DNA of 64,000 nucleotides from Thermacetogenium phaeum DSM 12270 (GCF_000305935.1 NC_018870.1:2155001-2219000), one strand, 5' to 3'. Positions 6,898-56,549 are shown, numbered from the stretch's first letter. The notes: a model not told the origin generated them from the sequence alone. Translations and numbers: made by a program.

Positions 6898-9378
6898 TTA
6901 CTTCACCACAAGGTTGACCAGCTTCCCGGGTACGCACACCACTTTGACCAGGTTCTTCCCCTGCAGCAGCTGGTTGATCCGGGGCTGGGCGAGCACCAAT
7001 TCTTCTAATTCTCTGTTGCTCAGGCCCACCGGGACATCCAAATGGTCCCGTACCCGCCCGTTGACCTGCACTGCAATGTTGATCTCCTCTTGCTTAAGAG
7101 CCTCAGGGTCGGCCTCCGGCCACTTCTGTTCGTGAACGCTTCCCTTCCCCCCGATCGCCTCCCACAGCTCTTCGGCCAGATGAGGGGTGAAAGGAGCCAA
7201 AAGGGTAATCAGAACGGAAATCCCCTCCTTCAGCACATCCCGGTGCCACTCCTGTTCCGCCGTCCCCTCGGTATAATGGTAGAGGGCGTTTACCAGTTCC
7301 ATGATGGCGCTCACAGCGGTATTGAAATTAAACCTCGTCTTGATGTCCTCTGTCACGCGCTGGATGGTCCTGTGAATAGCCCTGCGCAGCTCCCTCTCCT
7401 GGCTTCCTAAGGCCCCGGCGTCCGGGGTGTTCCCGGTATCCCTGATCACGGGGGCAAGGCTCTGCACCAGCCGCCAGACTCTGTTGATGAAACGGTAGGC
7501 ACCGTCCACACCCTGGTCGCTCCAGTCCAGGTCGCGCTCGGGAGGCGCCGCAAAGAGGATGAAGAGCCGAGCGGTATCTGCTCCGTAATTCTCGATAATC
7601 TCCTCCGGGCTGACCACGTTCCCCTTGGATTTGGACATCTTGGCGCCGTCCTTGAGCACCATTCCCTGCGTCAGGAGGTTTGTGAAGGGTTCGTCGCAGG
7701 GCACCAGCCCCTGATCGTAGAGGACCTTGGTAATAAACCTGGAGTACATCAGATGCAGGATGGCGTGTTCCACACCGCCGATATACTGGTCAACCGGCAT
7801 CCAGTAGCGCACCTTGCTGGAGTCGAAGGCCTGCTCCCGGTCCTGCGGGCTGCAGTAGCGCAGGAAGTACCAGGAGGAGCAGACAAAGGTATCCATGGTG
7901 TCGGTCTCCCTCCGGGCGGAGGCACCGCACCGCGGGCAGGTAGTGTTGAGAAAGTCCTCCGCTTTGAGCAAGGGGGATTCCCCGGTGGGCTCAAAGGCCA
8001 CATCCTCCGGAAGCAGCACCGGCAGGTCCTCTTCCGGCACAGGGACGATCCCGCAGCGGTCGCAATAGATGATGGGAATGGGTGCCCCCCAGTAGCGCTG
8101 CCTGGAAATGAGCCAGTCGCGCAGGCGGTAGTTGACCTTCTCCCTGCCGCAGCCCTTCTCCTCGGCGAATTCCGTGATTTTCAGCCGTCCAACCTCACTG
8201 TCCAGACCGTCGAACCTGCCGGAGTTGACCATCACACCGGGACCATCATAGGCCTGCTCCAGGGTTGCGGCATCCAAATTTTTGCCCAGCGGCTGAATAA
8301 CCACCCGAACCGGGAGGTTGTACTTGCGGGCGAACTCCAGATCGCGCTGATCGTGGGCGGGGACCCCCATCACCGCACCGGTGCCGTACTCGAGCAGGAC
8401 GTAATTGGCAACCCAGATGGGTACTTTCTCCCCGCTGATGGGGTTGACGGCATAGGCGCCGGTGAAGACCCCCTCTTTCTCCCCTTCGGCGGAGGCGCGC
8501 TCGATCTCGCTCTGCTTTCTAACCTTCTCCACAAATTCCATCACCTGCCGGGCTTCCGCCTTGCCTCTGATCAGTTCCTCCACAAGGGGGTGCTCCGGCG
8601 CCAGGACGAGATAGGTAACGCCGAAAACGGTGTCCGGGCGAGTGGTAAAGACGGTTATCCGGCTCCCGTTTTCGGCCAGGAACTCCAGCTCCGCCCCGTG
8701 GCTTTTGCCGATCCAGTTCTCCTGCATCAGCTTCACCTTTTCCGGCCAACCGGGGAGCTTCTTCAAGTCGTCCAGGAGACGGTCAGCATAATCGGTAATC
8801 CGGAAGAACCATTGTTCCAGATCTCTGGTGGTCACCTCAGTATCACAACGCTCACAGCGACCGCCAACCACCTGCTCGTTGGCCAGCACCGTGGCGCAGG
8901 AGGGGCACCAGTTGACGGCCTGCTTCTTCCGGTAGGCCAATCCCCTGTGGTACAGCTGCAGAAAAAGCCACTGCGTCCATCGGTAGTATTCTGGGTGGCA
9001 GGTGGTCACCTCCCGTGACCAATCGTAGCTGAGCCCTAGGGAGCGCAGCTGCCTGCGCATGTTTTCGATATTCCCCCAGGTCCACTTGGCCGGAGGAATG
9101 CGGTTCTTGATGGCGGCATTCTCCGCCGGGAGGCCGAAGGCGTCCCAGCCCATGGGATGCAGGACATTATACCCGTTCATCCTGTAAAAGCGGGCGATTA
9201 CATCGCCGATGGCATAATTGCGGACGTGCCCCATATGCAGGTTTCCCGAAGGATAGGGGAACATCACCAGGCAGTAGTACTTCTGCCCTGCGGCATCCTC
9301 CGTTGCCCGGAAGGCATCCGTCTCCTCCCAGCGCCGCTGCCACTTCTTCTCGATCAAGCGGAAGTTATACTTTTCCAC
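6898..9378 (-). CDS. leuS: Leucine--tRNA ligase
   Basis: This 826-aa class I aminoacyl-tRNA synthetase charges tRNA-Leu. The HIGH-type signature is [15 protein letters not shown] near residue 40 and the KMSKS loop is [16 protein letters not shown] near residue 580. The editing (CP1) domain is present with [12 protein letters not shown], as is a Zn-like cysteine set (CPSC...CERCD). The start is a GTG with weak spacing from GGTGA. Upstream on the same strand are four tandem group II introns and a leucine-type T-box leader with its own promoter at 12454-12482, so expression should depend on tRNA-Leu charging. Confidence 0.97.
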
Positions 9379-9474: not shown

Positions 9475-12122
<2,648 letters not shown>

Positions 12123-12126
12123 ATTG

Positions 12127-12157
12127 AAAACTCCCGCCCCTCAGTCAGGGACGGGAG
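12127..12157 (-). terminator. T-box-controlled terminator of leuS
   Basis: On the minus strand CTCCCGTCCCT-gactg-AGGGGCGGGAG is followed by TTTT. The 5' arm overlaps the sequence after the T-box motif that would form the alternative antiterminator, as in Bacillota T-box leaders. It is also the docking site for the intron array. Confidence 0.9.
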
Positions 12158-12192
12158 TTTTTCCCGTGGTACCACCCAGCTTGGCAAATAAA

Positions 12193-12267
12193 TGGTGGAG
12201 CTGGCGGGAATCGAACCCGCGACCTCTTCCATGCCAAGGAAGCGCGCTCCCGCTGCGCCACAGCCCC
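12193..12267 (-). tRNA. tRNA-Ala (anticodon GGC)
   Basis: The 75-nt minus-strand sequence folds as a full cloverleaf: acceptor GGGGCTG with CAGCTCC, D arm GCGC...GCGC, anticodon arm CTTCC-TTGGCAT-GGAAG with anticodon GGC, T arm GCGGG-TTCGATT-CCCGC. CCA is encoded. It has no promoter of its own that I can see and lies inside the leuS T-box transcript. Confidence 0.95.
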
Positions 12268-12453
12268 ATCTATTTACCCACTCGATTATTGCAGTTAACG
12301 CCTGCCGACGGTAGCGGCTACACGAAGTTCACCGCTACTGCTCCCGGGCGAGTTCGACCCCCGGCATGCCACCGGCTCCCACCTCGTTCCACCGGCTCTC
12401 TGAAGGCCGCCAGGAGTGGTCTACTACTCCCGTTCCTCGCATTTACTGATGAC

Positions 12454-12789: not shown

Positions 12790-12838
12790 AGAGAAGGGCC
12801 TGAACTGCGCTGTACGTTGAGATCGGGCCCTCTCTTTT
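12790..12838 (+). terminator. Riboswitch-controlled terminator
   Basis: AGAGAAGGGCC ... GGGCCCTCTCT followed by TTT forms a strong hairpin with an 18-20 nt loop between the riboswitch and the transglutaminase start. It is the likely expression platform. Confidence 0.8.
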
Positions 12839-12866: not shown

Positions 12867-13754
12867 TTGAACAGGAAGAAATTTCAACTTTTCCTCATCA
12901 GTCTGGCTTTAGCATTCACCGCCGTTCTGTCCAGCGGCATCCCGGCAGAAGGCACCTACAGCATCGGTTTTCGAACGGCTTCAATCGAGATCACAAAGCC
13001 CGTTGCCAGCGGTGTGTCCTGCGACGGCATCCTCCAAACGGAGGGAAAATCGGACCTTCAGCAGGTCTGGTTCTGTCTGCGGGGCCCTGAGGGGGAAATC
13101 GCCACTTACCCCGTTCCCGTCAGCAACGGCCGCTTTCAGGCGAACATTCACCTCCGTTTCGGCCCGGGCACCTACACCGTCTGGGCAGGGGACAATCCCT
13201 ACCACTTCGACGGCAAGATCAGGTTTCTGGTAGAAAACAGGTCACAGTCCGATACGAGGTACCTTGCACCCTCGGCCTACGTTGACAGCGATAATGGAAA
13301 GGTCGCCGCCCTGGCCTCTGCCCTGGCCAATGCCCGTTTGACTGACAGAGAAAAACTGGAGGCCATCTACGATTGGGTGACCGGAAACATCAGCTACGAT
13401 TACTGTGCTTACAAAAGCGGCCGCAACCTTCTGGTCAAAGCCAGCACGACGCTGGAGAAGAAGACCGGAACCTGCCGTGACTATTCCTTCGTTGTGGCCG
13501 CCCTGGCCCGGGCGGCCGGTTTGCCCGCCCGGGTGATCTACGGCAAGGTTTTTGACAGCGATGCTAAGGTATGGTATGACCACGCCTGGAATGAGGTATA
13601 CGCCGATGGGCGCTGGATTGTCCTGGATGCCACCCGGGATGCAGGCTATGTCTCAAACGGACGCTTTGTCCCCGCTCCTTCTCGGAAACACTTCGATCTA
13701 ACCGATGAAGCATACAGCAGATACTACAGCAACCAGACCTATACAATCCACTAA
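12867..13754 (+). CDS. Secreted transglutaminase-like protein
   Basis: This 295-aa exported protein has a C-terminal transglutaminase/protease-like core. The triad is visible: Cys in TGTCRDYSFVV, His in YDHAWNEVY and Asp in VLDATRDAG. A signal peptide with a hydrophobic stretch (LFLISLALAFTAVL) precedes an Ig-like N-terminal region (about residues 30-130). I chose the TTG at 12867 because it follows GGAGG at good spacing; an upstream frame start lies inside the terminator. The gene sits behind a c-di-GMP-I riboswitch, suggesting a role in surface or matrix remodelling (cross-linking or proteolysis). The exact substrate is unknown. Confidence 0.85.
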   Translation: MNRKKFQLFLISLALAFTAVLSSGIPAEGTYSIGFRTASIEITKPVASGVSCDGILQTEGKSDLQQVWFCLRGPEGEIATYPVPVSNGRFQANIHLRFGPGTYTVWAGDNPYHFDGKIRFLVENRSQSDTRYLAPSAYVDSDNGKVAALASALANARLTDREKLEAIYDWVTGNISYDYCAYKSGRNLLVKASTTLEKKTGTCRDYSFVVAALARAAGLPARVIYGKVFDSDAKVWYDHAWNEVYADGRWIVLDATRDAGYVSNGRFVPAPSRKHFDLTDEAYSRYYSNQTYTIH

Positions 13755-13795: not shown

Positions 13796-14761
13796 TCACC
13801 TTTTGCCCTCCCTTCTCCTGAGCAGCAGAACACCGGCTCCGATCAGAACCACCCCAGCGTACACCGCTGCGAACAGATTGCCGCCCGTAATGGGGAACTC
13901 TCCCTTTGCCGGAGGGAACGCAGGCTTCCCCTCCGGCGGAGGTATCACTGGCTCAGGCTGCTCACCTGCGGAGGGCGGCCCTGCCGGCGGCCCTACCACG
14001 CCCGGTTCCGCCGGCACATCGATCGGTTCGTCATCCCCTCCCGGCGGCGGTTCCGGTTCGCCCGGTTCTCCTGGGACACCCGATCCTCCGGGCTCTTCGG
14101 CGTCGTCGGCCCCGCCGGAGTCCTCATCCACCGCTGCAGCAACGGCGATACTGAAATTATATTTGCCTTTCTGGGAAACACCGGGCAGTATATGAAACTC
14201 CAGATACCCCTCGAAGAGCTCTCCGGGGCCCTGCAGGGGCTTCTCCTCAACGCTCCAGCGCACCTCGATCAAGGCATCTTCCGGAACATCTCTGCAAACA
14301 ACCTCTCCCCCGCTGCAGAGGTAATAGAGAGAGCCATTTTCCAGAATCTGCGACCGGCCCTCCCAGCCGAGCACCGCCCTTTCTATGCTGATCGGCACCC
14401 ATCCATTGTTCTTGATACCGCAGGTAATAATGTTGTAATAGCCGGGATAAGCATTGCTGACAGTCAGGTCAATCCTGTCCGGAACGCCCTCACCGTCACT
14501 GCCGGCATCCCCCCAGAAATAGACCGTCTTGGAGACATCCTTTCCCTCCGGACAGGTGCGCACATTCTCTAAACCGGGATCACATGTTGGATCGGGCCCG
14601 GTGTCGCGCTGCTCCAATAGGTTCCTGTCAAAACCCCAACTCACCCGGCTCGTCTGGGCGGTGGGCCTTACTTCCAGGTTGCCGGACCACCTGGCGAAGC
14701 CGTAATTCATCAAAGATAAGGCCAGGAGCATGTTTACTAATAGCAAAGCCGCTCTCCTCAT
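13796..14761 (-). CDS. Fibre-like surface protein with SipW-type leader and FPITG anchor
   Basis: 321 aa. The N-terminus (LALSLMNYGFARWSGNLEV) matches the pattern of SipW-cognate signal peptides seen in TasA/camelysin-like proteins. The middle has motifs shared with neighbours: CPEGKDVSKT and DLTVSNAYPGYYN. A Pro/Gly/Glu-rich linker (about residues 215-285) follows, then FPITGG (about 289-294), a hydrophobic helix and RRREGKR, which is the layout of a sortase sorting signal. It probably sits on the cell wall as a terminal or base subunit. It is the last gene of a minus-strand cluster that includes the signal peptidase. No sortase gene lies in the window. Confidence 0.75.
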   Translation of the reverse strand: MRRAALLLVNMLLALSLMNYGFARWSGNLEVRPTAQTSRVSWGFDRNLLEQRDTGPDPTCDPGLENVRTCPEGKDVSKTVYFWGDAGSDGEGVPDRIDLTVSNAYPGYYNIITCGIKNNGWVPISIERAVLGWEGRSQILENGSLYYLCSGGEVVCRDVPEDALIEVRWSVEEKPLQGPGELFEGYLEFHILPGVSQKGKYNFSIAVAAAVDEDSGGADDAEEPGGSGVPGEPGEPEPPPGGDDEPIDVPAEPGVVGPPAGPPSAGEQPEPVIPPPEGKPAFPPAKGEFPITGGNLFAAVYAGVVLIGAGVLLLRRREGKR

Positions 14762-14816
14762 CCCTTAACAATACACCCCTCTCTTGGAGATGTTCCGGGG
14801 TTCTATCTATCCGCCC

Positions 14817-15938
14817 TCAAGTATCGCCGAAGCTCTGATCCCGGCGGCTTGCCGCTGCCCCCGCCGAATGATGGGTCCTGCCGTTAAAAAGAGCAGCAGC
14901 ATTGATGCACTGATCGAATTCGGCAACCCGGCAGCTGTACACCGTCAAACCGTCAATTACGTAACAGGTGAACTTGTGAGGGAGCACCCCCTCCTGATAG
15001 ATCAACGGCTTGCCGGCCTCATCGGCTACCTTCACCAGGTCCTCCAGAGATGAAAGGGAAACTGTGATGAGGTCCTCCGGCAGGGAGAAGTCATCTCCGG
15101 CCCGCACCATTCTGTCCCCGTGCTGCCTCCAGACCACCTGCACTAAATCTGGGCCGGCAGAATTCCTGCCTTCCGTTACCAGGGAAAAAACAACCAGAAG
15201 AAGAAGGAGAGCAACAGGAAGAATGCAAGCCTTAATCCTTCTCTCTTGCGCATCGGGGTCGGGGATCTGAACCGTCCTCGTCAGGGCAGCGCTCTTTTGG
15301 GGCGTCAGGTTGCCGACGATCCGGAACTCACCGGATGTGAGAGGTATTTCCATTGTCGGCGCCAGTTTTTCGGCAACCCTGCCGGCGGCGGATCTGGCCT
15401 CTAAATCAATGTCCGCCCTGATGACGAGCCTGGGCTCTCTGGCATTTACCCCCAATTCTTCATTAACACTCTTTAGGAACTGGTTGTAGGACTCCAGATT
15501 GATGGTAAACGGCCTGCTGAACACTAAAGTTTTTCCCGTCGCCTGCACCGCCGTTTCCGGAACGAGGATAAACTCCTTGCGCCACATCTTAGGTGCTTCA
15601 ACCACCGCAACAATCCTGTAATCGGCTTTCATCTCAGCGGCAGCATCGGCAGTGAATCGATAGCTGCAGACAGCATCGATTGATTTGACCAGCTTGGCGT
15701 AATAGGTTTGGCCGGAGCCGAGGGGCGTTTCGTTGAAAATACTGTTTGGCCTGATCTGAACCTGATAATCAATCTGCCCCCGCTGTTCATAACTGTACAC
15801 GGGGAGATTCTTGCTCACCACAGTCGGCTCCCGGTAAACCCTGTAAAGGTTGTAAAGGGAAGCGGCCAGCAACAGCATCAGCAGAAGAAGGATGGCGATT
15901 CTTACTTTCTTGCCCAGCTCGATCTTGCCCAGGCGCAC
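14817..15938 (-). CDS. DUF5305-like membrane protein
   Basis: 373 aa with an N-terminal membrane helix (about residues 12-30), a large extracytoplasmic region beginning VYSYEQRGQIDYQVQIRPNS, a second helix (ILPVALLLLLVVFSLV, about 240-255) and a roughly 115-aa cytoplasmic tail. The organisation and the YxY-Q-G-xxxYxV-x-N pattern resemble DUF5305 proteins, which occur beside SipW-type signal peptidases. The start lies 12 bp after the peptidase stop, so they are one operon. It may assist processing or export of the fibre proteins; this is inference from position. Confidence 0.6.
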   Translation of the reverse strand: MRLGKIELGKKVRIAILLLLMLLLAASLYNLYRVYREPTVVSKNLPVYSYEQRGQIDYQVQIRPNSIFNETPLGSGQTYYAKLVKSIDAVCSYRFTADAAAEMKADYRIVAVVEAPKMWRKEFILVPETAVQATGKTLVFSRPFTINLESYNQFLKSVNEELGVNAREPRLVIRADIDLEARSAAGRVAEKLAPTMEIPLTSGEFRIVGNLTPQKSAALTRTVQIPDPDAQERRIKACILPVALLLLLVVFSLVTEGRNSAGPDLVQVVWRQHGDRMVRAGDDFSLPEDLITVSLSSLEDLVKVADEAGKPLIYQEGVLPHKFTCYVIDGLTVYSCRVAEFDQCINAAALFNGRTHHSAGAAASRRDQSFGDT

Positions 15939-15950
15939 AGTGTTTCCCCC

Positions 15951-17126
15951 TCAGATAAACAGTTTTCTAGCGGCTATCGACGCCCAGCCCAAACGCGGGA
16001 TTACCAGCACGACCTTTCCCTTAACCTGCCCCTGCTGCACCGGCTCGTCTGGTTGGTCGTTGTCGTCCCCCTTTGTAATAAACTTCCGGTCAAAACCGGC
16101 GCCTTCAACCTCAATCACCCGGTGAATCGTTGGAATCGGCGAACCCTCAACCCTGTAGGCAATAATGTCACCTACCGTCAGAAGATCGGGGTTTTTTCTG
16201 GCAATGATCACGATGTCCCCTACTTCCAGGGTCGGCCGCATGCTTCCGCTGTAGATGACCGCCGGTCGCACCGGGAACACCCCGAGGGAAAACCAGATGG
16301 TGACCACGGCGGCAACTCCGAAAACCGCCGTTCTTACCATCCCCTCCCCGGTTGTTCTCTTTCTGCGGCGGGAGGCAAGCTGAGAAGCATAATACTCCTG
16401 GATAATTGCCAGACCCACCAGAGGAACAACCGTACCGGTAAGAGCCTTCATCGCCCAGTTGAGGTCCGGTAGCACCGGACAGAACCACTCAAAAGCCTCG
16501 AGCAATCCCCTGTAGACAAGAGCAGGCAGCGCACCCCCCCACATGGCCAGAAAAGAGGCCAGCAAATGCTCCATAACGATGGGATGCACCGAGGACCCGC
16601 AGAACTGAGTCCAGGTCTCCAGTGTGCTCTCCGGCCCAGGGATCTGTTTGGCCGGGATGTCGATCACGGCGAAGAGCAAGGCCAGCAAAACGGGCAAAAA
16701 GGCAGCCGGCCTGTGCAGGAGCCTGTTGAGCAGCCAGGCGCGGCAGAGCTCCATACCCAAAAGCCCTGACGCAACGTACACCAGGTTGAACAGGATTCCC
16801 CTGAGTGTGAAAGAGTAAGGGCTCTTCCCGAAACCGCTCAGAAAACCGGCCACCACCATCAGGTAGATCTGAAAAAGAGCAACCCCGCCGGCCAGTCTGA
16901 TCAGCAGCGGCAGCATCCGTTTTTTCCCCACCCCCCGGTAGCGAGGCAGGTGCAGGAAATACAGGATGATAAGCAGCCAGACCGCCGGCTGGGCTACATA
17001 AACCCCGTAAAAACCGGGCAGAATGCGCGGCAACACGAAGTCAAAGAGCAGGGGAACTGTACATGCCAGTCCGCAGCCCAACAGCCAGTCACATGGAAGT
17101 CTGAGTTTCCCATTGGAGAAGCTCAT
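15951..17126 (-). CDS. SipW/ER-type signal peptidase I fused to a polytopic membrane domain
   Basis: 391 aa. Residues 1 to about 255 contain multiple predicted membrane helices with no family I recognise. Residues about 265-391 are an S26B signal peptidase: catalytic Ser in YSGSMRPTLEVGDIVII, His in IPTIHRVIEVEG (in place of the bacterial Lys), then FITKGDDNDQPDEPV. The Ser/His pair is typical of the SipW and eukaryotic/archaeal type. The ATG at 17126 follows GGAAGGAAAGG. It probably cleaves the unusual leaders of the adjacent fibre proteins. SipW is normally under 200 aa, so the N-terminal extension is striking. Confidence 0.85.
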   Translation of the reverse strand: MSFSNGKLRLPCDWLLGCGLACTVPLLFDFVLPRILPGFYGVYVAQPAVWLLIILYFLHLPRYRGVGKKRMLPLLIRLAGGVALFQIYLMVVAGFLSGFGKSPYSFTLRGILFNLVYVASGLLGMELCRAWLLNRLLHRPAAFLPVLLALLFAVIDIPAKQIPGPESTLETWTQFCGSSVHPIVMEHLLASFLAMWGGALPALVYRGLLEAFEWFCPVLPDLNWAMKALTGTVVPLVGLAIIQEYYASQLASRRRKRTTGEGMVRTAVFGVAAVVTIWFSLGVFPVRPAVIYSGSMRPTLEVGDIVIIARKNPDLLTVGDIIAYRVEGSPIPTIHRVIEVEGAGFDRKFITKGDDNDQPDEPVQQGQVKGKVVLVIPRLGWASIAARKLFI

Positions 17127-17305
17127 TGCCTTTCCTTCCCACCGGGGCCGGCCTAATGCACCGGAACCGGTCAATCCGGCCGACCACAAAGGGTCTTCCA
17201 CCACCCGCAATCATCAGCAATTGGGAGGTGAAGAGCGCCGGGACTTCACTTCGCAGCGCTCCCACCCTACATCAAAGCGCTCCGGCTACACCGGCGAACG
17301 ACCGC

Positions 17306-18493
17306 TTAAAGGGAAACCGTAAAGGTAAACACCCCGGGATCGACGCCATCCCTGACCCGCAATGCGATCGCAATCGCCTTCCTTCTGCCAGGCTGAATAA
17401 CAGAATCACTGCTCTCTAGCAACCGCAGTTCCATCTCCTCGGGGTTGCTGTTGATGATCTTCAACTGGCCTATCGGGATCGGTTTCGTCCCCGTATTCTT
17501 CACATCAAGCACGATCTTGTTGTAATAGGCGGGGTAACCGTTATTGACCGCGACTTCCGCCAGGTCGTACATCCCATCCCCATCTGTGTCCTCCCTGGCA
17601 ATCGCTGTTGATGCCAGATTGGCATTGGTTTTGGTGATGCCCCCGAATTCCGGATCGCAGGTCCAGTCTAACCCGACGTCCTGCTGCTTGCACCCGTAGA
17701 TGTACCACTGCGCAGGTACCTCTGTAACGGTAACCGCCGCTGTGTCTGTGTCGGTAAGAACCCCGTCACTCACTTCCAATCTGGCCGTACCCTGATAAAC
17801 GCTATCCCAGGTAAAAGCCGCACAGGGATCCGTCGTCCACTCGGTATCCCAGTTGCCGTCATTGTCAAAATCCCAGCGGTACTGGAGCTGGTCACCATCG
17901 GGATCGGAGGAACCGCTCCCATCGAAAGCAACCGAGGAACCTACAAAAGCCGCATAGGGGCCGCCAGCCTCCGCTACCGGAGGGTTGTTATAAGGTGGTT
18001 CATCGATATAAATGTCCCCTCTGATGATGAACACGACATCATCGAAGTCGCGATCCCCTCCGCCCCTCAGGTCCTCAAAACCGACCTCCCAGGTCTGGAA
18101 ACCCATCTCGGTTACAACGGCATGTACCTGGCCATCGCTGTTCCTCTCCCCCGGCCCTGTGAACCAGGTTCCCTCCCGGCTGTTGGAAATAAAGAATATC
18201 AATTCCGTGCCGGCGGGATACCTCCCCAGATCGATTACCGTACCTGGGGTAAGGCTGTGGCCATAGCCGATATCTCTGCGCTCCGGACTCCATAAGCCGA
18301 AGAGGTTGTTGAGATCCGCTGTTGCGGGCAACATTTCTATAGTAACATCGCTATCTTCGGTAAGAACGATGATCTTTGCCGCAGGATAGAGCGCAGCTTC
18401 AGCTTGCCCCAAACCGAAGAAGCCAAAAGCCAGAACCAGCCCTAAACCCAATAAAACGAGGTTGATGAGGATCACTGACGGCTTTCTCTTCAT
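17306..18493 (-). CDS. Secreted PKD-domain protein with DUF4114-like and fibre-type C-terminal domains
   Basis: 395 aa. Signal peptide (LINLVLLGLGLVLAFGFFGLGQAEA), a DUF4114-like domain ending GGGDRDFDDVVFIIRG (about residues 120-160), a PKD domain (NPPVAEAGGPYAAFVG ... YRWDFDNDG, about 170-255), and a C-terminal module starting WYIYGCKQ with TCDPEFGGIT and NNGYPAYYNKIVLDV. The last module is nearly duplicated in the protein at 21487-23364. The ATG at 18493 follows AAGGAGG. It is probably an extracellular matrix or adhesion protein secreted by the general route. Confidence 0.75.
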   Translation of the reverse strand: MKRKPSVILINLVLLGLGLVLAFGFFGLGQAEAALYPAAKIIVLTEDSDVTIEMLPATADLNNLFGLWSPERRDIGYGHSLTPGTVIDLGRYPAGTELIFFISNSREGTWFTGPGERNSDGQVHAVVTEMGFQTWEVGFEDLRGGGDRDFDDVVFIIRGDIYIDEPPYNNPPVAEAGGPYAAFVGSSVAFDGSGSSDPDGDQLQYRWDFDNDGNWDTEWTTDPCAAFTWDSVYQGTARLEVSDGVLTDTDTAAVTVTEVPAQWYIYGCKQQDVGLDWTCDPEFGGITKTNANLASTAIAREDTDGDGMYDLAEVAVNNGYPAYYNKIVLDVKNTGTKPIPIGQLKIINSNPEEMELRLLESSDSVIQPGRRKAIAIALRVRDGVDPGVFTFTVSL

Positions 18494-18667
18494 TCCTGAA
18501 ACCTCCTTCCCCCCTACTATAGGGGTCAATATTCACCGCCTTCCGGGTCCAAAAGACCGGAGCTTTGACAACCGAACAATCCTCCTGTGGGTGCCGAACA
18601 CCCAGCGCATAAAGATTTGATAATTCCGGGTGGGACTTATCCCACCCGACATTCAACAGGTTTGCTT

Positions 18668-19363
18668 TCAATCAACTACGCTCCCGGCCGGGATCGGGCT
18701 CTCATTCCACTGGACACCCTCAATGCTCAGGCTGAAGCTGTATTGATCGTTCTGAGCGGCAGGCTGCAGCACATGGAAGCAGATGCTCTCGCTGAGCACC
18801 TCTCCCGGGTGCTGCTGGGCGCTGACGTTGTCCTGGAACATGACCTCGATCACGGCGCCGTTCTCCTCAGGGCTCACAAAACCGTCATCATATTCGCTGA
18901 TGATGGAGCCGTTGCTGCAGAGGTAGTAGACAACCCCGCTTTCCAATTCAGACTCAGTTTCCATCCACGTCAGCTCGGGAATCTGCACGATAACCGGTAT
19001 GGTCCCCGCGTTAATGACATCGAAGGTTATCTCGTTGAAGTAGCAGGGGTAGGCATTGGAAACGGTGATGTCGAGGGTGTCCTTGACGCCGTCCTCATTG
19101 GCGTCTGTGACCTCAACAGAGGTAGAGCCCACATCCTTGCCCTCTGTGTCCTGATCATAGTTGAGCATCCCGCCCTCCATCTCGGAGTGCCAGTCGGTCC
19201 CCTCGTCGAGCTGCCATACGCTTTCATCGAAGATCCCCCACTTTACCGAGCCGCTCTGAGCAGTGGCTCTTACCACCACAGAGTCCGACCACTTGGCAAA
19301 GCCGAATCCCATCAGAGCCAGAGCAAGCACCACAACCTGGCAGACAAGCGCTTTCTTGCGCAC
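18668..19363 (-). CDS. SipW-cognate fibre-like secreted protein
   Basis: 231 aa starting at GTG 19363 after GGGAGG. The leader LALALMGFGFAKWSDSVVV has the G-x-x-x-A-x-(W/F)-S-D pattern of TasA/camelysin precursors cleaved by SipW-type peptidases. The mature part shares TEGKDVGST and DITVSNAYPCYFNEI with neighbours and looks all-beta. There is no anchor at the C-terminus. It is likely a secreted structural subunit, paralogous to the product of 20209-20877. Confidence 0.72.
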   Translation of the reverse strand: MRKKALVCQVVVLALALMGFGFAKWSDSVVVRATAQSGSVKWGIFDESVWQLDEGTDWHSEMEGGMLNYDQDTEGKDVGSTSVEVTDANEDGVKDTLDITVSNAYPCYFNEITFDVINAGTIPVIVQIPELTWMETESELESGVVYYLCSNGSIISEYDDGFVSPEENGAVIEVMFQDNVSAQQHPGEVLSESICFHVLQPAAQNDQYSFSLSIEGVQWNESPIPAGSVVD

Positions 19364-19496
19364 GATCGCACCTCCCTTTTCTATAAAGCATCTAATTAAA
19401 GGAGTACAAAACCATCCAAACGGCATCTTAAATAAATAAACTTAAGCAAAACTGTGACGGCAGCTGCGGCATCCTAAAACCAAGGACTCCAGTCGG

Positions 19497-20093
19497 CTAT
19501 CCCCTATCGTTCCAGCGGCAGGCGTCCGCCCAGATGCTTAAGGAAGCCTCTTCCGCAGAGCAGCCGGGGTGAAACTGCAGTTCAATGCACATCCTCTGCT
19601 GCGGATCGAGCAGCACATCTCTGACCGCTCTCTGCAACCGCTTGATGCCGCTGCCGTTCTCCCGGTAACCGTTGGGGAGGCTGACCTCCCATTTTTGAAG
19701 GCACCCGTTCCCGCACCCATCCAGCGAGATGCCTTTAATCCTGGCCGGGATCGTCCCACCGTTGCCGATCTCGAGAGCGGCGGTAATTCTGCAGCCGTTG
19801 CAGCCGCCCCCGAAGAAGAGATCCACGTACTCATAGTAGTCCGTCTCCGAGACGGCGCAGACCCAGGGGCCCTCGGCATAGCTTACAGATGGCGGGTTCA
19901 CCCTTTCAGGCTCCTGGCTGCGGCACCGGCCGCACATCCAGGCATCGGCATCCTCGCACCTGATGCCCACCCCCAGCCATCCCGTAGCCGCGTCGGCGTT
20001 GACCAGCAGGGTATCCGACCAGCTGGTGTATCCCGCACCGATGATCATCAGCGAAAAGAGCATTACCAGGCAGAAGAACAGCGGTCTTTTCAC
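19497..20093 (-). CDS. Cysteine-rich SipW-cognate secreted protein
   Basis: 198 aa from GTG 20093 (GGGAGGG upstream). The leader LMIIGAGYTSWSDTLLVNADAATG fits the SipW-cognate pattern. The mature protein is rich in cysteine, with paired motifs WMCGRCRSQ, GGGCNGCR, GCGNGC and CxxxCxW, unlike the other paralogues. It may be disulfide-stabilised or metal-binding. It lacks the clear AYPxYYN motif. Operon position and leader support membership of the same secreted system. Confidence 0.65.
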   Translation of the reverse strand: MKRPLFFCLVMLFSLMIIGAGYTSWSDTLLVNADAATGWLGVGIRCEDADAWMCGRCRSQEPERVNPPSVSYAEGPWVCAVSETDYYEYVDLFFGGGCNGCRITAALEIGNGGTIPARIKGISLDGCGNGCLQKWEVSLPNGYRENGSGIKRLQRAVRDVLLDPQQRMCIELQFHPGCSAEEASLSIWADACRWNDRG

Positions 20094-20135
20094 TCCGGTG
20101 CTCCCTCCCGCGAGCAATAGTAGAAAACTTTTATG

Positions 20136-20184
20136 GCAGCGGGTAAGGGGGCATAAGTGGCCCCCTGCATCCATAACCCGCTGC
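20136..20184 (-). terminator. Nested hairpin between two fibre genes
   Basis: GCAGCGGGT and ACCCGCTGC enclose GGGGGC/GCCCCC, a strong two-tier hairpin just after the 20209-20877 gene. Only a weak T-rich tail follows (CATAAAAGTTTTC). It may terminate partially or stabilise the upstream mRNA so that the first subunit is made in excess. Confidence 0.55.
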
Positions 20185-20208
20185 ACACGGACAAATTATC
20201 AACAGGTA

Positions 20209-20877
20209 TTACTCCGCCACCGGCCCGAAAACTTCGTTCCACTGGGCGACATTGATAGTGATGGTGCCTGTAGTGGTGGCCTCTTCCGGGGCAAGTTCTT
20301 CGCCGATCTCTTCTATAATGCACAGGTTTACTTCGACTTCGATAAACCCGTCCTGGTGGAGCTGGATGTACTTGAGGGCATCAAACAGGTCGTCCCACGA
20401 CGTCTCCCCTTCGGAACTAATAACATCGTCATACTGCTCCAAGCCGTTGGACGCAGGGTTATGCACCGTTATCTTCCAGCTCGCCACCTTGATGAAATCG
20501 CCCAACTCGCCGTCCCAATTGGGGCCAATCACATCCTCCACCTTGACGGGTACGGTGCCCACTCCGTTGATTCTGAACATGAAGCCGGGCTGATACCACG
20601 GATAGGCGTTGCTGATGGTGACTTTAATCGTATTTTCATCAACATTGACGCACTCAATGCTCGCAACATCCTTGCCCTCGCTGTTGTTCCCGGGCGGAAT
20701 ATTGGGGTCGGGCCCCTCGTCATTAACACCTAGGGCTTCGATCTCGACATCCACGTTACCGGTTGCCACTTCAGCGTTGATCGCCACAGTATCCGACCAC
20801 TTGGCGAAGCCAAAGCCCATTAAGGCCAGGGCAAGCACCGCCACGATGCAGATAAGAGCAGTCTTTTTGGGCTTCAT
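20209..20877 (-). CDS. SipW-cognate TasA-like fibre protein
   Basis: 222 aa with an ideal AAAGGAGG site before ATG 20877. The leader LALALMGFGFAKWSDTVAINAEVATGNVDVEI closely follows the SipW-cognate signature (hydrophobic core, G-F-A-x-W-S-D-T, then N/A-rich). The mature region carries SEGKDVASIECV and KVTISNAYPWYQPGF and is acidic. It is the best candidate for the major fibre subunit, given its strong translation signals and the large hairpin after it. The closest named relatives by pattern are TasA/CalY. Confidence 0.75.
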   Translation of the reverse strand: MKPKKTALICIVAVLALALMGFGFAKWSDTVAINAEVATGNVDVEIEALGVNDEGPDPNIPPGNNSEGKDVASIECVNVDENTIKVTISNAYPWYQPGFMFRINGVGTVPVKVEDVIGPNWDGELGDFIKVASWKITVHNPASNGLEQYDDVISSEGETSWDDLFDALKYIQLHQDGFIEVEVNLCIIEEIGEELAPEEATTTGTITINVAQWNEVFGPVAE

Positions 20878-21486
20878 AAGATTTTCCTCCTTTATTTGTT
20901 ATCGGAATTCAGCTCACAACTTCTCCCTTCTCTCCCAATCATATCCTGAAACAGCTTCCTCTTTTCACCCCCCGTTTCCCTGTTGTTGCCAGGTCGGCTT
21001 TGATATTCAAATCAGATCCACGTTCAGAGCAGAGAATCGGACAACTCCCGCTTCCGTTCCCAGATTAAGAGGTGCTGCCACAACCCCCCGGCCAGCCCCA
21101 AGATACCATGAGCCTCTTCTCAACCGCTATTGACCGCGAGGGGGAAAAAGGGATGGATCGGGAAACCGCGAAAACAAAGCCGGATTAATACCCGCCCGGA
21201 TTTCAGGGCCTGCATCGGGGAAAGGGGGGCGGTAGGATTAATCGGTATTAAGCCTGCCCTCATTCGATCCCCGGCCCCGGGGGTTGTGGATCCGGCCATC
21301 CGGCTTCGACCAGCGCAGCCGGATTCACCGGCAGCAGAGCTGCCCCGTCTCCAAGTCCTTGGCAAAAAGGCGACCCCGGTCGGATAGTGTGCAGGCTCCC
21401 GGCCGGGGCAACAAGAAGCGGGCTGTGATAGCCCGCTTTCACCGGTAAAAAATTTTTATTGATTCCAACCGGGGCCGACAGACCCT
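20878..21486. other. Intergenic region, 609 bp
   Basis: It holds no credible gene. A perfect hairpin AAGCGGGCT-N5-AGCCCGCTT lies at 21416-21438, some 50 bp past the stop of the 21487-23364 gene, and may mark transcript end; it lacks a T-run on the minus strand. The rest presumably contains the promoter of the 20209-20877 gene, but I see no clear -35/-10 pair. Confidence 0.4.
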
Positions 21487-23364
21487 TTACAGGGAAACCG
21501 TGAAGGTGAACAAGCCCGGTGCAGCACCGTCCTTGACCCGCAGGGCAATCCCGATTGCCTTCCTTCTCCCCGGAGCAATGGAGGAAGCGGGGCTCTCCAG
21601 CAGCCGCAGCTCCAGCTCCTCCGGGTTGCCGTTGGCTATTTTTACCTGCTCCAGCGGAATCGGCTCCGTTCCCGTGTTTTTCACATCGAGCACGATTTTG
21701 TTGTAATAGCTGGGATAGCCGCCCTGGACGGTGATTTCCGCCCGGTCGTACATCCCATCCCCGTCGCCGTCATCCCTGACGATTATTGTAGAGGCCAGGT
21801 CAGCAGCGGTTTGAGTGATCCCCCCGAAATCGGAATCACAGGTCCAGTCCAGCCCAGTGTCCAGCTGCTTGCATCCGTAGATGTACCACTTCAAGAGCGG
21901 CAGGATGATGTAGTTCTCTGTGTAAACCTGCGAGCGGTTCCCCGCTCGGTCGACGGCGAAGAACTTGAGAACCGTGTCGGCCGCAATCTCAAGCGGCCCC
22001 TCATAAACCGGGCTTTCCTTTCCGGGCTCACTACCGTCGGTGGTGTAGTAAAAGGTGGCCGGTTCCGACGCCGCAAGGGTTACGCTCTGCGCCCCGCTAT
22101 AGGTGCCTCCGAGGGGATTCGCCGCCGCTGAGGGAGCTGTCAGGTCGATGTTGATGCCGCCAACAGTGCAGCTAGCGGTGTTCCCCGCCCTGTCGGCAGC
22201 CGTCCCGGTGACCTCAAGGCCCTCCCCCTCGGTGGTGAGGAGCACATCCGGGGTCACGCTGGCGATCCCGGAAACGTCATCTGAGGCCTCAAAGTGAATC
22301 ACAACACCGGTATTGTACCATCCGTTGCCGTTCGGAGCGGTCGTCGGAGCACCGATGATCTCCGGTGGTGTTTTGTCGATCAGTACCACTGCGCTCTTCG
22401 TGGCCTCCACGTTCCCTGCCTTATCGATCGAACGGTAGTAAACGGTTGTCAGGCCTTCGACAGCGATGGTGAAGGGGCCCGCGTAGGTGATCCAGCTTGT
22501 TCCGTCGAAGCTGTACTCGGTGCTGGAAACCCCTGAGCCGTCGCCGTCCTCCGCGTTCAGGGTCGCCACAACATCGGATCGGAACCAGCCGTTATTACCC
22601 GTGATCCCATCCAGATCGATGTTCGTGGATGGTGCCACCTCGTCAGCAAGGGTTATCCTCACATTGTCGATCCTGTGCCAGTGGTTGAAAGCGCCGGTGG
22701 CGCCCGAAAAACCCAGCCCGCCGAAGGTGCGGTCAAGGTCGCCGGGGCTTACGTATTCAAGCATTTTGTTGCCATCGACGAAAACGGTGATATTTCTGTT
22801 GTCGACAACAACACGGGCTTGATGCCACCTGTTGTCCTCGACAACATCGGTGTTGACATACTTCAGGTGATTGTTCGCCCTGTCCTTGATGACGGCAATA
22901 TGGCGCCCACTGGGATCCATACCGTAATGCTCATAGTTATAATGGTTGTCGAACTCCACCCCATAACCTGCCACCGGTATTAGATCCCCCCCTATAAAAC
23001 CGATGACACCCCCGCCACCGGGGGAATAATTTTTATTCTTGTAAAACATCAACACAATCCCGTCGGCCCCCGTTCCTCCACCGGCCAGATAGTTGAACTC
23101 AACCGTAAACTTTCTATCCCTTATTTCGCGGTCCCGGAGCCAGAGGACACCGACCTGGGCGTTATTATTCTGTGTTAAAACCACATCACCCGCTCCTGCA
23201 TCCCTGTAAGCACTCCCTACGTAACTCCACAGACCGGAGTCAGCACTGAAGTCATCAGCGATCGTAAAAGTTCCGGCATAGGCGATTCCTGCCGCTGACA
23301 GGAAACTTACGCAGAGAACGGCAAAGATAAGCGCCGCACCGAAAGCCCTCAATTGTCTTTTCAC
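21487..23364 (-). CDS. Large secreted lectin-like, Ig-repeat matrix protein
   Basis: 625 aa. Signal peptide (GAALIFAVLCVSFLSAAGIAYAG), an L-type-lectin/concanavalin-like domain (about residues 30-240, with VEFNYLAGGGTGADGIVLMF and HYGMDPSGRHIAVI), two OmpL47-like beta repeats (EYSFDGTSWITYAGPFTI; VYYRSIDKAGNVEA), a chitobiase-C-terminal-like module (FYYTTDGSEPG ... FFAVDRAGN) and the C-terminal WYIYGCKQ module shared with 17306-18493. I chose GTG 23364 behind GGAAGGGGG. It probably binds polysaccharide in the extracellular matrix. No membrane anchor is visible. Confidence 0.75.
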   Translation of the reverse strand: MKRQLRAFGAALIFAVLCVSFLSAAGIAYAGTFTIADDFSADSGLWSYVGSAYRDAGAGDVVLTQNNNAQVGVLWLRDREIRDRKFTVEFNYLAGGGTGADGIVLMFYKNKNYSPGGGGVIGFIGGDLIPVAGYGVEFDNHYNYEHYGMDPSGRHIAVIKDRANNHLKYVNTDVVEDNRWHQARVVVDNRNITVFVDGNKMLEYVSPGDLDRTFGGLGFSGATGAFNHWHRIDNVRITLADEVAPSTNIDLDGITGNNGWFRSDVVATLNAEDGDGSGVSSTEYSFDGTSWITYAGPFTIAVEGLTTVYYRSIDKAGNVEATKSAVVLIDKTPPEIIGAPTTAPNGNGWYNTGVVIHFEASDDVSGIASVTPDVLLTTEGEGLEVTGTAADRAGNTASCTVGGINIDLTAPSAAANPLGGTYSGAQSVTLAASEPATFYYTTDGSEPGKESPVYEGPLEIAADTVLKFFAVDRAGNRSQVYTENYIILPLLKWYIYGCKQLDTGLDWTCDSDFGGITQTAADLASTIIVRDDGDGDGMYDRAEITVQGGYPSYYNKIVLDVKNTGTEPIPLEQVKIANGNPEELELRLLESPASSIAPGRRKAIGIALRVKDGAAPGLFTFTVSL

Positions 23365-23850: not shown

Positions 23851-24492
23851 TCAACCAGCCGAATCGATGAGTCCGTTCTGGATCGCCACAGCTTGCGCCT
23901 CGTGGCGCTTGCGTACCCCCAGCTTGCGGAAGATGCTGCGCAGATGGGACTTGACGGTTGATTCCGAGAGGTAAAGGGTAGAAGCGATCGCCTTATTGGG
24001 AAAATCCCGAATGAGCAGGGCAAGCACCTCCCGCTCCCGCACCGTCAGCTTATCCAGAGCGGAGCTGGGGCGATTATTGCCGGCAGTGTTGTGAAAAAAC
24101 TCGGGGCCAAAGCGCGGCAGGCAGAGCACCCCAGCCACCACTATTAACTCCACCGCATTGACGATCTGGGCAGGCAGCAGGCGGAGCGGCAGGCAGCCTC
24201 TCACCCCTTTCCTCAACAGCTCCATCAGATCGTACTCGCCCGGATCGCGCACCATCATCACCGTCAGAGAAAAGGGGGCCTTTTCTCTGAGCCGGGTGAG
24301 CCCCTGGACGGGATTCCCCCCATTGACCTTCCAGAGCACCACGTCAGGGTAAAGACGGCCTGCCGTCCCCACCAGTTCTGTGGAAGGCACACAGCCCAAC
24401 ACGTCAAAGTGGATATTCTGCTCAAAGGCTGCAGTCAGGCAGTCACACCATTCCGGGGGATCACCGCTGATAAGGATTCGATAATCTCCCAT
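23851..24492 (-). CDS. LuxR-family regulator with degenerate receiver domain
   Basis: 213 aa with a receiver-like domain (about residues 1-115) and a C-terminal LuxR/NarL helix-turn-helix (KLTVREREVLALLIRDFPNKAIASTLYLSESTVKSHL, about 148-184). The usual phospho-acceptor position in the PDVVLMD-type motif reads PDVVLWKV, so the aspartate is replaced by lysine. Acidic residues near the N-terminus are also reduced (ILISGDPPEW). It is therefore probably not controlled by a histidine kinase; none is adjacent. It lies beside the matrix locus and the HD-GYP gene, so it is a candidate local regulator. Confidence 0.85.
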   Translation of the reverse strand: MGDYRILISGDPPEWCDCLTAAFEQNIHFDVLGCVPSTELVGTAGRLYPDVVLWKVNGGNPVQGLTRLREKAPFSLTVMMVRDPGEYDLMELLRKGVRGCLPLRLLPAQIVNAVELIVVAGVLCLPRFGPEFFHNTAGNNRPSSALDKLTVREREVLALLIRDFPNKAIASTLYLSESTVKSHLRSIFRKLGVRKRHEAQAVAIQNGLIDSAG

Positions 24493-24798: not shown

Positions 24799-25761
24799 CT
24801 AAAATATCAGAGAAAACAGCTGTTGGTACTGGCTGGGAAGAAAAGCACCGACCTCGGCTGGCTGCAGGCCGTCCTTTCTTTCCTCTTCAAGGACGTCCAG
24901 GAAGTGCATGACGAGGCGGGGATCAAACTGCGAACCGGCACAGCGGATCAATTCGGCCACCGCCTCCTCGTGCGACAAAGCGCTCCGATAAGGGCGGTCA
25001 GAAGTCATGGCGTCATAGGCGTCAGTGATGGCGATGATGCGCGCCCCTAAGGGGATCTCGCTTTTGGCCAGACCTCCCGGGTAGCCCGTCCCATCGTAGA
25101 ATTCATGGTGATGCCTGATAATGCTGGTAACCCTCTTGGAGACAACGAATTTCTCCAAGATCCTCGTACCAATTTCCGGGTGCCTGCGTACCTCGGCAAA
25201 CTCTTCAAGAGAGAGCTTCGCCGGCTTTTTAAGTATACTGTCGGAGATACCGATCTTTCCCAAATCGTGGAGGAGGGCGGCGCAGTAAACGTCGGACAGC
25301 TCTTCGGAGGACATCCCAATTCTCCTGCCCAGGGCAAAAGAATAGCTGGCAACCCGCTTCAGGTGATTAAGAGAGCCTTCATCCCGCGCCTGAACTGCGG
25401 CTGCCAAAGTATTGAGGGCCGAGGAAAAGAGGCGGTTGACCTCCTGCTTTGTCTCGTCAAGGCTGTTCTCAAGTTCTCTGTATTCCCTTCTCAAAACCCG
25501 GTACCTGTAAGCAAACAAGCAGAACGTATAAACCATCCAGCTGAGGACCAGAAAAAACAGCAGATATTTACCCGCAAGAGTGCCGTATTCGAGGAGGGAC
25601 GCCGCCGAATCAAACACCCCTCCGCCGGCCGCCTGCTCGCATATTTTCACCGTCAGGTACATCGACAGAGCGATAACTGTTACCACAAGCGCAAAAAAAA
25701 TGAATGTCTGGCGCTGTTTCGGCTCGAAGTCGAATTTGAAGAAAGGAGCCGGCAAGTTCAT
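24799..25761 (-). CDS. Membrane HD-GYP domain c-di-GMP phosphodiesterase
   Basis: 320 aa. Two N-terminal membrane helices (about residues 18-37 and 67-85), a short coiled linker (REYRELENSLDETKQEVNRL), and an HD-GYP domain with HDLGKIGISDSILKKP (about 168-183) and HHHEFYDGTGYPGGL (about 216-230). The GYP motif and metal-ligand histidines are intact, so it probably hydrolyses c-di-GMP. It follows rsfS at the end of the housekeeping cluster and precedes the matrix locus that contains a c-di-GMP riboswitch. Confidence 0.88.
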   Translation of the reverse strand: MNLPAPFFKFDFEPKQRQTFIFFALVVTVIALSMYLTVKICEQAAGGGVFDSAASLLEYGTLAGKYLLFFLVLSWMVYTFCLFAYRYRVLRREYRELENSLDETKQEVNRLFSSALNTLAAAVQARDEGSLNHLKRVASYSFALGRRIGMSSEELSDVYCAALLHDLGKIGISDSILKKPAKLSLEEFAEVRRHPEIGTRILEKFVVSKRVTSIIRHHHEFYDGTGYPGGLAKSEIPLGARIIAITDAYDAMTSDRPYRSALSHEEAVAELIRCAGSQFDPRLVMHFLDVLEEERKDGLQPAEVGAFLPSQYQQLFSLIF

Positions 25762-35007: not shown

Positions 35008-35047
35008 CCAGGGGGTATCTGTGCAGGAGAGCACAGATACCCCCTGG
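35008..35047. repeat. 17-bp perfect inverted repeat in the divergent region
   Basis: CCAGGGGGTATCTGTGC and GCACAGATACCCCCTGG flank a 6-nt loop. It lies about 90 bp upstream of the regulator gene and 380 bp upstream of the -24/-12 promoter. It could be an enhancer site for the activator or a transcription-blocking hairpin. The rest of 34919-35428 shows no gene. Confidence 0.6.
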
Positions 35048-35428
35048 CGTATAGTGCTCTCCTTTCCGTAATGGGAGGCCCGGCGGTTTCCCGCCAGACC
35101 CATTGGCCTGGCAACCATACCTGGCTGGCTTCAGGTCACCAGGCTCGGAGAATTATTCATTCTCTATTCCTTTCAAAAGTTCGTTCGACAATGTTCCCGA
35201 AAATCCTTCCACCGACCAATTAATTTCCGGCTTTTCCATTGAGATACCACTTTCGAACCGAATCCACCGGGGAACCGTACCGGCCTGTCAGGGGAATGTA
35301 GCACAAATTATACAACACCGCGACAATCAGCTTACATCTATTGGCATTCAAGGCGAAAGTCTCCTTCAGGACTCCAAGCTGGATGTAGGAATTAATGAAT
35401 GATATCATGTCCGGCCGGAACCATATCC

Positions 35429-35455: not shown

Positions 35456-35747
35456 ACAGCCAAGGAAATATCATCTCCGAACCTGTCCGCCTGTGGCACT
35501 GGCTATGGCAGCAGGTCTGTAGGGTATGTCTGGAAACGGACATACCTCCCGTTATGGAAAGGGGATTTACAACTTGAGTAGCTGGGCCATACCTCTTTCC
35601 GGTATGGCCTTTTTGCAGGGGGTTTATCCCGTCTCCCTGGTAGAGTTTCTATCCAAAGGGGGTGATGGTAAAGAGGGGTTAGAGGAGCCAGCGCCGGTTG
35701 CAGGTTAATGGAGCGAGGTCAAAAAATTAAAAAGGGGGTTTTTTAAA
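35456..35747 (+). promoter_or_regulatory. Long leader with attenuator-like hairpins
   Basis: The leader between the sigma-54 promoter and the aldehyde dehydrogenase contains GGTATGTC-N8-GACATACC (35523-35546) and an intrinsic terminator GGCCATACC-N7-GGTATGGCC-TTTTT (35585-35614). The GGTATG/CATACC arms of both hairpins are mutually complementary, so alternative pairing is possible. I do not recognise the riboswitch class, if it is one. Confidence 0.5.
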
Positions 35748-55600: not shown

Positions 55601-56549
55601 TCAATTCCTCATAGGTAGGCTGGAAACCGGTTATGATGCCTGGCTGGTCGAGACCGAGGGGGGTTTCAATTCCTCATAGGTAGGCTGGAAACTCCACTAT
55701 CCGTGTAAGAATGTTGAGATGTGCTGCGTTTCAATTCCTCATAGGTAGGCTGGAAACACAGTCATACCTAGACATACTACACGGGCGCATCTGTTTCAAT
55801 TCCTCATAGGTAGGCTGGAAACGCAATCATCCAAACATCAATATGGTGCTAACAGACTGTTTCAATTCCTCATAGGTAGGCTGGAAACTAGAAAGCGACC
55901 TGGTGCTGTTGAGGTATCTGAAGGGTTTCAATTCCTCATAGGTAGGCTGGAAACCCTCCCAGTATAGCTCGGCTACTGCGATGAAATCACGTTTCAATTC
56001 CTCATAGGTAGGCTGGAAACTTTCCCACAAAGATAAAGCTGAGCGGGAAATATTGTTTCAATTCCTCATAGGTAGGCTGGAAACTCCCACCCCTTTTAAT
56101 AATAGGGAGCCTGCTTTTCCTGTTTCAATTCCTCATAGGTAGGCTGGAAACCCTTACAGGTATCGCATTAACCTTCCTCAAACCCTCGTTTCAATTCCTC
56201 ATAGGTAGGCTGGAAACGCTCTTCGGATTTGACCATCCAGTCCCTACTGTTGAAGTTTCAATTCCTCATAGGTAGGCTGGAAACTTAGGTAAAAAGGTGG
56301 TCTTCTAGTTCCAGAAATTCGTTTCAATTCCTCATAGGTAGGCTGGAAACGTGCGAGGTAAATGTTAGGAGCAGATTGATAGTTTTGTTTCAATTCCTCA
56401 TAGGTAGGCTGGAAACATGCTCCTAGGTATGGATGTGGTGAAAGATGACATGGTTTCAATTCCTCATAGGTAGGCTGGAAACTTGCACCTCCCACCTTGC
56501 GGCCACGCCGTTGGCATCGGTTTCAATTCCTCATAGGTAGGCTGGAAAC
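49611..56549 (-). CRISPR. CRISPR array, 105 repeats / 104 spacers, type I-B-like
   Basis: I located 105 copies of a 30-bp repeat that begins GTTTCAATTCC and ends GGTAGGCTGGAAAC on the + strand, with spacers mostly 34-39 nt (one of 41). I saw no variant repeats in the array. Read on the minus strand the repeat ends ATTGAAAC, the 5' handle of type I-B (and some type III) crRNAs, so transcription is probably right to left, with the leader at the right. Two spacers occur twice. A 7-nt repeat stub (TGGAAAC, 49568-49574) plus a 36-nt spacer precede repeat 1, so the array once extended further left. No cas gene lies in the window. Confidence 0.98.

Follow-up and report, generated by a model that had tools for sequence, protein, structure and literature searches.

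The stretch of DNA studied here, a 64,000-nucleotide window of the genome of the thermophilic anaerobe Thermacetogenium phaeum DSM 12270 (GCF_000305935.1 NC_018870.1:2155001-2219000), holds a group of eight genes, here called H, G, F, E, D, C, B and A, which all lie on the minus strand and run from position 23364 down to 13796 of the window. Six of them (A, D, E, F, G and H) encode secreted proteins that have one β-sandwich domain in common; C encodes a signal peptidase of the archaeal or SipW type, and B a membrane protein of the DUF5305 family. An initial annotation had described five or six secreted proteins encoded together with these two, and this holds, the count being six. From G through A the genes are closely spaced, some 12 to 180 bases apart; for H, F, E, D and C the start codon is an in-frame one of our choosing. 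A promoter scan gave a number of sites no higher than in shuffled sequences.

Four of the secreted proteins are fibre subunits by homology. G (20209-20877) is of the major type, with the leader GFGFA/KWSD (the slash marks a predicted cleavage site) and AQWNE at its C-terminal end; E (18668-19363) has the same leader and VQWNE near its end; F (19497-20093) is Cys-rich, with 11 cysteines in its mature part and the leader GAGYTSWSD; and A (13796-14761) has a proline-rich spacer and a sortase-type signal at its C-terminus. A search of the genome with the Pfam family PF12389 found no match, and a profile approach was needed instead. Run against the 2.94-Mb genome, a profile of 58 subunits found six sites, all inside the locus (one in each of G, E, F and A, and one at the C-terminal end of each of D and H), and no seventh copy of the domain. 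Since all six matches lie within one locus, their grouping is not due to chance; the peptidase C is also present in a single copy in the genome.

The subunit domain and its leaders

Searched against the PDB, the 58-subunit profile matched AbpX (9sj2) with E=4.9e-18 and TasA (8aur/5of1) with 4e-4 to 6e-4, the latter alignment extending through the QWN end of TasA; a profile of 13 sequences reached AbpX 9sj2 with E=2.8e-12, and the sequence of G alone reached AbpX with E=6.8e-5. In view of these matches the subunits are no new fold family, and the initial proposal of a "new family" of fibre-like proteins has to be given up: they belong to the TasA/camelysin/AbpX superfamily, and two NCBI models, TIGR04088 (SipW-dependent leaders) and TIGR04090 (BsaA-like), already match many of the relatives, the second matching 16 of 58 at E up to 0.1. 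A TasA-like fold had been suggested as a check, and structure prediction, run on G, agrees with it. AlphaFold2 gives a confident sandwich (predicted local distance difference test score, pLDDT, 91.4), in which residues 21-40 are among the few stretches of lower confidence, and residues 29-43, the donor segment, form no strand and are unpaired in the monomer. In a Foldseek search with this model the TasA fibre ranked second by E-value and had the top probability (0.99) among the matches listed, at a template modelling score (TM-score) of only 0.40; AbpX was not among the matches listed.

The donor segment of G, KWSDTVAINAEVATG (20758-20802), is the counterpart of QWSETLSLSATISTG in AbpX, with the first residues of the AbpX fibre chain, QWSETL, aligned to KWSDTV of G. 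In PDB entry 9rhp the same 15 residues stand at the C-terminus after GGG, and we infer from this sequence that the entry is a self-complemented construct with a permuted donor strand. Both ABPx and TasA fibres have been described as donor-strand-exchanged (PMC11952670). Within the W-S-D...TG segment, W27, T39 and G40 are kept at at least 90% in relatives, the Trp of x-W-S is nearly invariant among them, and a Q-[WF]-N-like motif lies near the C-terminal end of 53 of the 58 subunits.

A, E, F and G carry SipW-type leaders and score 22-47 bits for the combined leader and donor motif, while D and H reach no more than -17 and -9. The motif G-x-x-x-A/S-x-W-S-D had initially been ascribed to three leaders; G and E (GFGFAKWSD) follow it strictly, while F has T at the A/S place (GAGYTSWSD), and the leader of A is a degenerate version (NYGFARWSG). 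We predict that G, E, F and A are cleaved just before x-W-S. In TasA, an aromatic P2' residue is associated with cleavage by SipW and with poor processing by the general enzyme of E. coli, and the same work identified the P2 Trp as the residue that blocks (PMC10269814). If the subunits in the window were cut at the predicted place, Trp would be at P2', fitting the TasA/SipW case.

The two remaining secreted proteins are built differently. H (21487-23364) carries L-type lectin, OmpL47-type and CHB_HEX_C modules and D (17306-18493) DUF4114 and PKD modules, and in both a subunit-like domain comes last (21490-21888 in H, 17309-17707 in D). Their leaders are ordinary signal peptides of the AxA type (AEA/ALYP in D, AYA/GTF in H); they are thus not SipW-type precursors, and the lectin-like and PKD members named in the initial annotation are in this respect ordinary secreted proteins. 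The last 133 residues of D and H are 75% identical, and they match a subunit from Ammonifex (locus L030) with 2e-24, and E, A and orthologues with about 1e-10 to 1e-13. The match starts where the ordered fold of G starts, and both the donor segment and the QWN end are absent.

Peptidase, DUF5305 protein, wall anchor and riboswitch

The signal peptidase C (15951-17126) has its catalytic domain behind six predicted N-terminal membrane segments. It matches TIGR02228 with E=4.5e-24 and 85.1 bits, above the cut-off of 51.85, and the Bacillus SipW equivalog NF046067 with E=2.6e-12 and 46.7 bits, below the 190-bit cut-off; its catalytic motifs are those of a Ser-His-Asp enzyme (SGSM for Ser, IHR for His, KGD for Asp), replacing Ser-Lys. 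The adjacent B (14817-15938) matches DUF5305 (PF17231) with E=3e-42 and 144.9 bits, well above the gathering cut-off of 29. In its structural model two membrane helices flank a β-rich outer domain, and a small inner domain contains the conserved sequence SIEDLVKVADExGKP. The sequence of B has no significant match in the PDB. Its model resembles LEA/Ig-like sandwiches (Af_0446, the luminal domain of TMEM106B) and the fimbrial AggA; these matches are weak (TM-score below 0.2 on the query) and were not taken to indicate a function.

An alignment of the signal peptidase led to 46 related loci that carry the fused peptidase, in Bacillota, Chloroflexota, Archaeoglobales and one metagenome-assembled genome (MAG) of Thermoplasmata; some taxon titles among the 46 (a Flavobacteriales MAG, 'Lutibacter') seem to reflect faulty binning or naming. 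A single-sequence scan with B of the contigs of related genomes found nothing, and a plasmid search for DUF5305 gave no match. The recurring core is made up of subunits, the signal peptidase fused to six transmembrane segments and DUF5305, nearly always so on contigs of sufficient length; the Archaeoglobales matches to DUF5305 are weak, at about 1e-7. DUF5305 is not named in the literature that we searched, and its constant place beside the peptidase suggests for B a probable role at the membrane, in assembly or holding. After each of two Archaeoglobales fibre loci comes a large secreted protein (12089-14437 in L048 and 11974-14502 in L060, both minus strand); the two are alike in the pattern of their starts and ends, and may be C25-type peptidases.

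Two further elements were absent from the initial annotation, a sortase-type anchor on A and, just past the operon end, a riboswitch for cyclic di-GMP (c-di-GMP) with a transglutaminase gene. The sorting signal of A (13799-13900) consists of FPITGG, a transmembrane segment and RRREGKR, and reads LPKTGG or MPRTGG in orthologues. In L045, an independent Bacillota locus, a subunit gene is followed in turn by those for the peptidase, DUF5305, a protein with LPYTGG at its end, and a sortase (PF04203, 1.6e-30); the sortase beside the LPYTGG protein supports a wall anchor, and we consider it likely that A is attached to the wall through its sortase signal. As A has a donor strand as well as this signal, it is the likely base of the fibre.

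On the plus strand, convergent to the operon, lies the sole c-di-GMP-I riboswitch aptamer of the genome (12688-12775), then a terminator-like hairpin (12796-12838; GGGCCUG...CGGGCCC and UCUCUUUU), and then the gene of a secreted transglutaminase-like protein (12867-13754; TTG start after GGAGGT, frame open from 12837). No riboswitch, for c-di-GMP or otherwise, was found directly before H or G at E<1. L045 repeats the arrangement of c-di-GMP-I riboswitch, hairpin and transglutaminase (E=4e-77 to that of the window), convergent with its anchor-sortase end. A c-di-GMP riboswitch is close by in 8 of 42 related loci scanned (class I in L023 and L045; class II in L026, L042, L044, L055, L059 and L064), or 9 of 43 with the locus of the window included, a frequency whose enrichment was judged rather than measured, as there was no control set of random loci; in L044, L055, L059 and L064 histidine kinase, regulator, subunit and peptidase genes follow it in series, the kinase being Pfam-checked in L044 and L064. 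We hold it moderately probable that the fibre locus is under c-di-GMP control.

Upstream of H, on the minus strand, lie a LuxR-type regulator with a degenerate receiver domain (23851-24492) and a membrane HD-GYP protein, a probable c-di-GMP phosphodiesterase (24799-25761). The regulator has no receiver-domain match and lacks the usual phospho-acceptor Asp (VVLWKVNG), yet it is kept beside the locus in relatives. Loci of the window's own family adjoin genes of the rsfS/nadD/proA/obg type, named by eye, with the LuxR-type regulator adjacent and often an HD-GYP gene too.

The proposed fibre and its alternatives

We propose, with a probability of roughly 0.8, that the locus builds an adhesive, cell-wall-anchored, SipW-processed fibre of the TasA/AbpX type, assembled by donor-strand exchange. 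G, E, F and A would be exported via Sec and cut by C just before x-W-S (GFGFA/KWSD), which would free a 15-residue N-terminal donor strand; each such strand would complete the β-sandwich of the next subunit, as in TasA and AbpX. A would donate its strand while being fixed to the wall by its C-terminal signal. D and H would be cut by the general signal peptidase. Since their tails could accept but not donate a strand, with lectin, CHB_HEX_C-type or PKD modules preceding the accept-only domain, they should cap fibre ends, like FimH; we hold this role for D and H only tentatively, at a little under even odds. B would probably assist at the membrane next to the peptidase. By way of the riboswitch and terminator, c-di-GMP would control the transglutaminase-like enzyme, which may cross-link or process the fibre.

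Several points weigh against this proposal. The fibre is predicted in this organism from its genes, the identity of the subunits to TasA itself is low, the TM-score of G to TasA is modest, and G scores 17.0 bits against PF12389 (TasA/camelysin), below the cut-off of 22.5. The gap of about 0.6 kb between H and G means that H may form a separate transcription unit. The sorting signal of A falls, by itself, below the PF00746 and TIGR01167 cut-offs, and the one sortase in the genome is encoded far from the locus. The riboswitch precedes the transglutaminase gene here, not the fibre genes. Finally, the end-cap role draws on sequence from one species: a search of 61 genomes found no second fusion of the D/H type in the 60 relatives, the matches being orthologues of A, so that the plan of D and H looks lineage-specific.

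The subunits might share the fold and still remain monomers in a loose matrix or a surface coat, as for camelysin, with no donor-strand fibres. The Pfam family nearest to G is indeed that of camelysin, though below its cut-off, and since the sandwich is kept in the tails of D and H without a donor strand, the domain may fold alone. Such a coat does not account well for the W-S-D...TG segment, which is among the best conserved mature parts, matches the N-terminus of the AbpX chain and stays unpaired in the monomer model of G; we regard it as improbable. Slightly less improbable, but still quite unlikely, is that the subunits are joined covalently by sortase or transglutaminase, as in sortase-assembled pili, with donor strands secondary. 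The sortase signal on A and its orthologues, the sortase gene beside the L045 anchor and, near two loci, transglutaminase genes that have the Cys, His and Asp motifs would all fit, as would the resistance of C. perfringens BsaA polymers to sodium dodecyl sulphate (SDS) and formic acid (PMC7395162). On the other side, BsaA polymerised without the neighbouring sortase SrtB (PMC7395162); the sorting signal is present on A and on none of G, E and F, and a transglutaminase gene is found near few loci.

The closest competition concerns D and H, which could be integrated along the fibre or be free matrix proteins that bind extracellular polymeric substance (EPS), their shared tail being a generic surface-binding module and no end cap; we give this a chance only just below that of capping. 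The 75% identity of the two tails looks like a recent domain duplication, there is no such fusion in the relatives searched, and a tail without the QWN strand might be self-contained. Against a generic module, the tail is homologous to subunits of the locus (E and A at 1e-11 to 1e-12, besides the Ammonifex subunit), and it begins at the start of the ordered fold of G, as an accept-only subunit requires.

Taking the donor-strand fibre with end caps further, the locus may hold a full polarity system: a sortase-fixed base, a shaft that donates and accepts, and accept-only lectin/PKD caps, that is, a FimH-like adhesive pilus evolved independently on a TasA/AbpX scaffold, DUF5305 serving as assembly factor and the fibre being locked by a transglutaminase that c-di-GMP switches. 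We consider this complete picture rather unlikely. TasA-type fibres are mostly known as plain biofilm shafts; here a base, a shaft and a tip each have candidate genes of their own, DUF5305 is a candidate partner conserved from Bacillota to archaea, and regulation can be tested directly, given how often c-di-GMP riboswitches recur beside such loci. Among the relatives are syntrophic acetate oxidisers, Syntrophaceticus schinkii for instance, for which cell-cell contact matters.

Other features of the window and relation to known systems

Beyond the end of the operon, a T-box leader (12144-12446, minus strand), whose specifier was judged by eye to be CUC (Leu), lies upstream of leuS (6898-9378). 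The helix preceding the T-box sequence of this leader encloses an entire tRNA-Ala(GGC) gene (12193-12267, minus strand), an arrangement kept in L021, L022 and L025; a literature search found no paper describing a T-box leader with an embedded tRNA gene. Between this leader and leuS are four group II introns without an open reading frame (9475-12038, minus strand), in exact head-to-tail tandem at 662-bp spacing; three copies are identical over a 522-base probe, and several full or partial copies occur elsewhere in the genome. Two divergent molybdenum/tungsten cofactor riboswitches (35043-35162, minus strand, and 35463-35580, plus strand) face away from each other, and a clustered regularly interspaced short palindromic repeat (CRISPR) array (49611-56549, plus strand) has about 105 repeats of the CRISPR-DR2 type at near-constant 65-70-bp spacing.

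With AbpX (Pyrodictium abyssi, 9sj2, 9rhp) and the archaeal bundling pili (AbpA, Pyrobaculum calidifontis) the window shares the subunit domain, a mature N-terminus x-W-S-[DE] and a donor segment ending in TG. Archaeal subunits can also stand in a comparable setting: in Archaeoglobales their neighbours include the fused peptidase together with a weak relative of DUF5305, and in the Thermoplasmata MAG they include DUF5305. In contrast to AbpX, the locus is bacterial and has four different subunits, one with a sortase signal, and two adhesin fusions.

Like tapA-sipW-tasA of B. subtilis and sipW-calY/tasA/CapP of B. cereus, the locus combines a dedicated archaeal-type peptidase with β-sandwich subunits, and the QWN end of TasA aligns with theirs. 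It differs from these systems in that the peptidase is fused to six transmembrane segments, DUF5305 is present, no TapA (which supplies the first donor strand; PMC10903470, PMC10151520) was seen, and G falls below the TasA and camelysin family cut-offs, with no match to the NCBIfam TasA model NF046066. The sipW-bsaABCRSD operon of C. perfringens, which makes BsaA pellicle fibres, encodes a two-component system along with SipW and several secreted subunits (PMC7395162); the available part of that report mentions neither DUF5305 nor a c-di-GMP switch, and no lectin/PKD fusions or subunit with a sortase-type anchor. As far as we found, neither this combination of parts nor the repeated link with a c-di-GMP switch has been described.

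In FimH a binding domain precedes a pilin domain that has no donor strand. D and H conform to this plan, with binding modules and a subunit domain without donor strand, whereas their lineage is unrelated to that of chaperone-usher pili, neither chaperone nor usher accompanies them, and their end position is suggested by sequence. The initial proposal that the locus is dedicated to secreting and assembling an extracellular fibre of several components is well supported by the AbpX and TasA homology, the dedicated archaeal-type peptidase and the module kept in 46 loci. We thus suggest that the locus very probably belongs with the TasA/AbpX-type fibre systems, a known type of fibre with an unusual set of parts.

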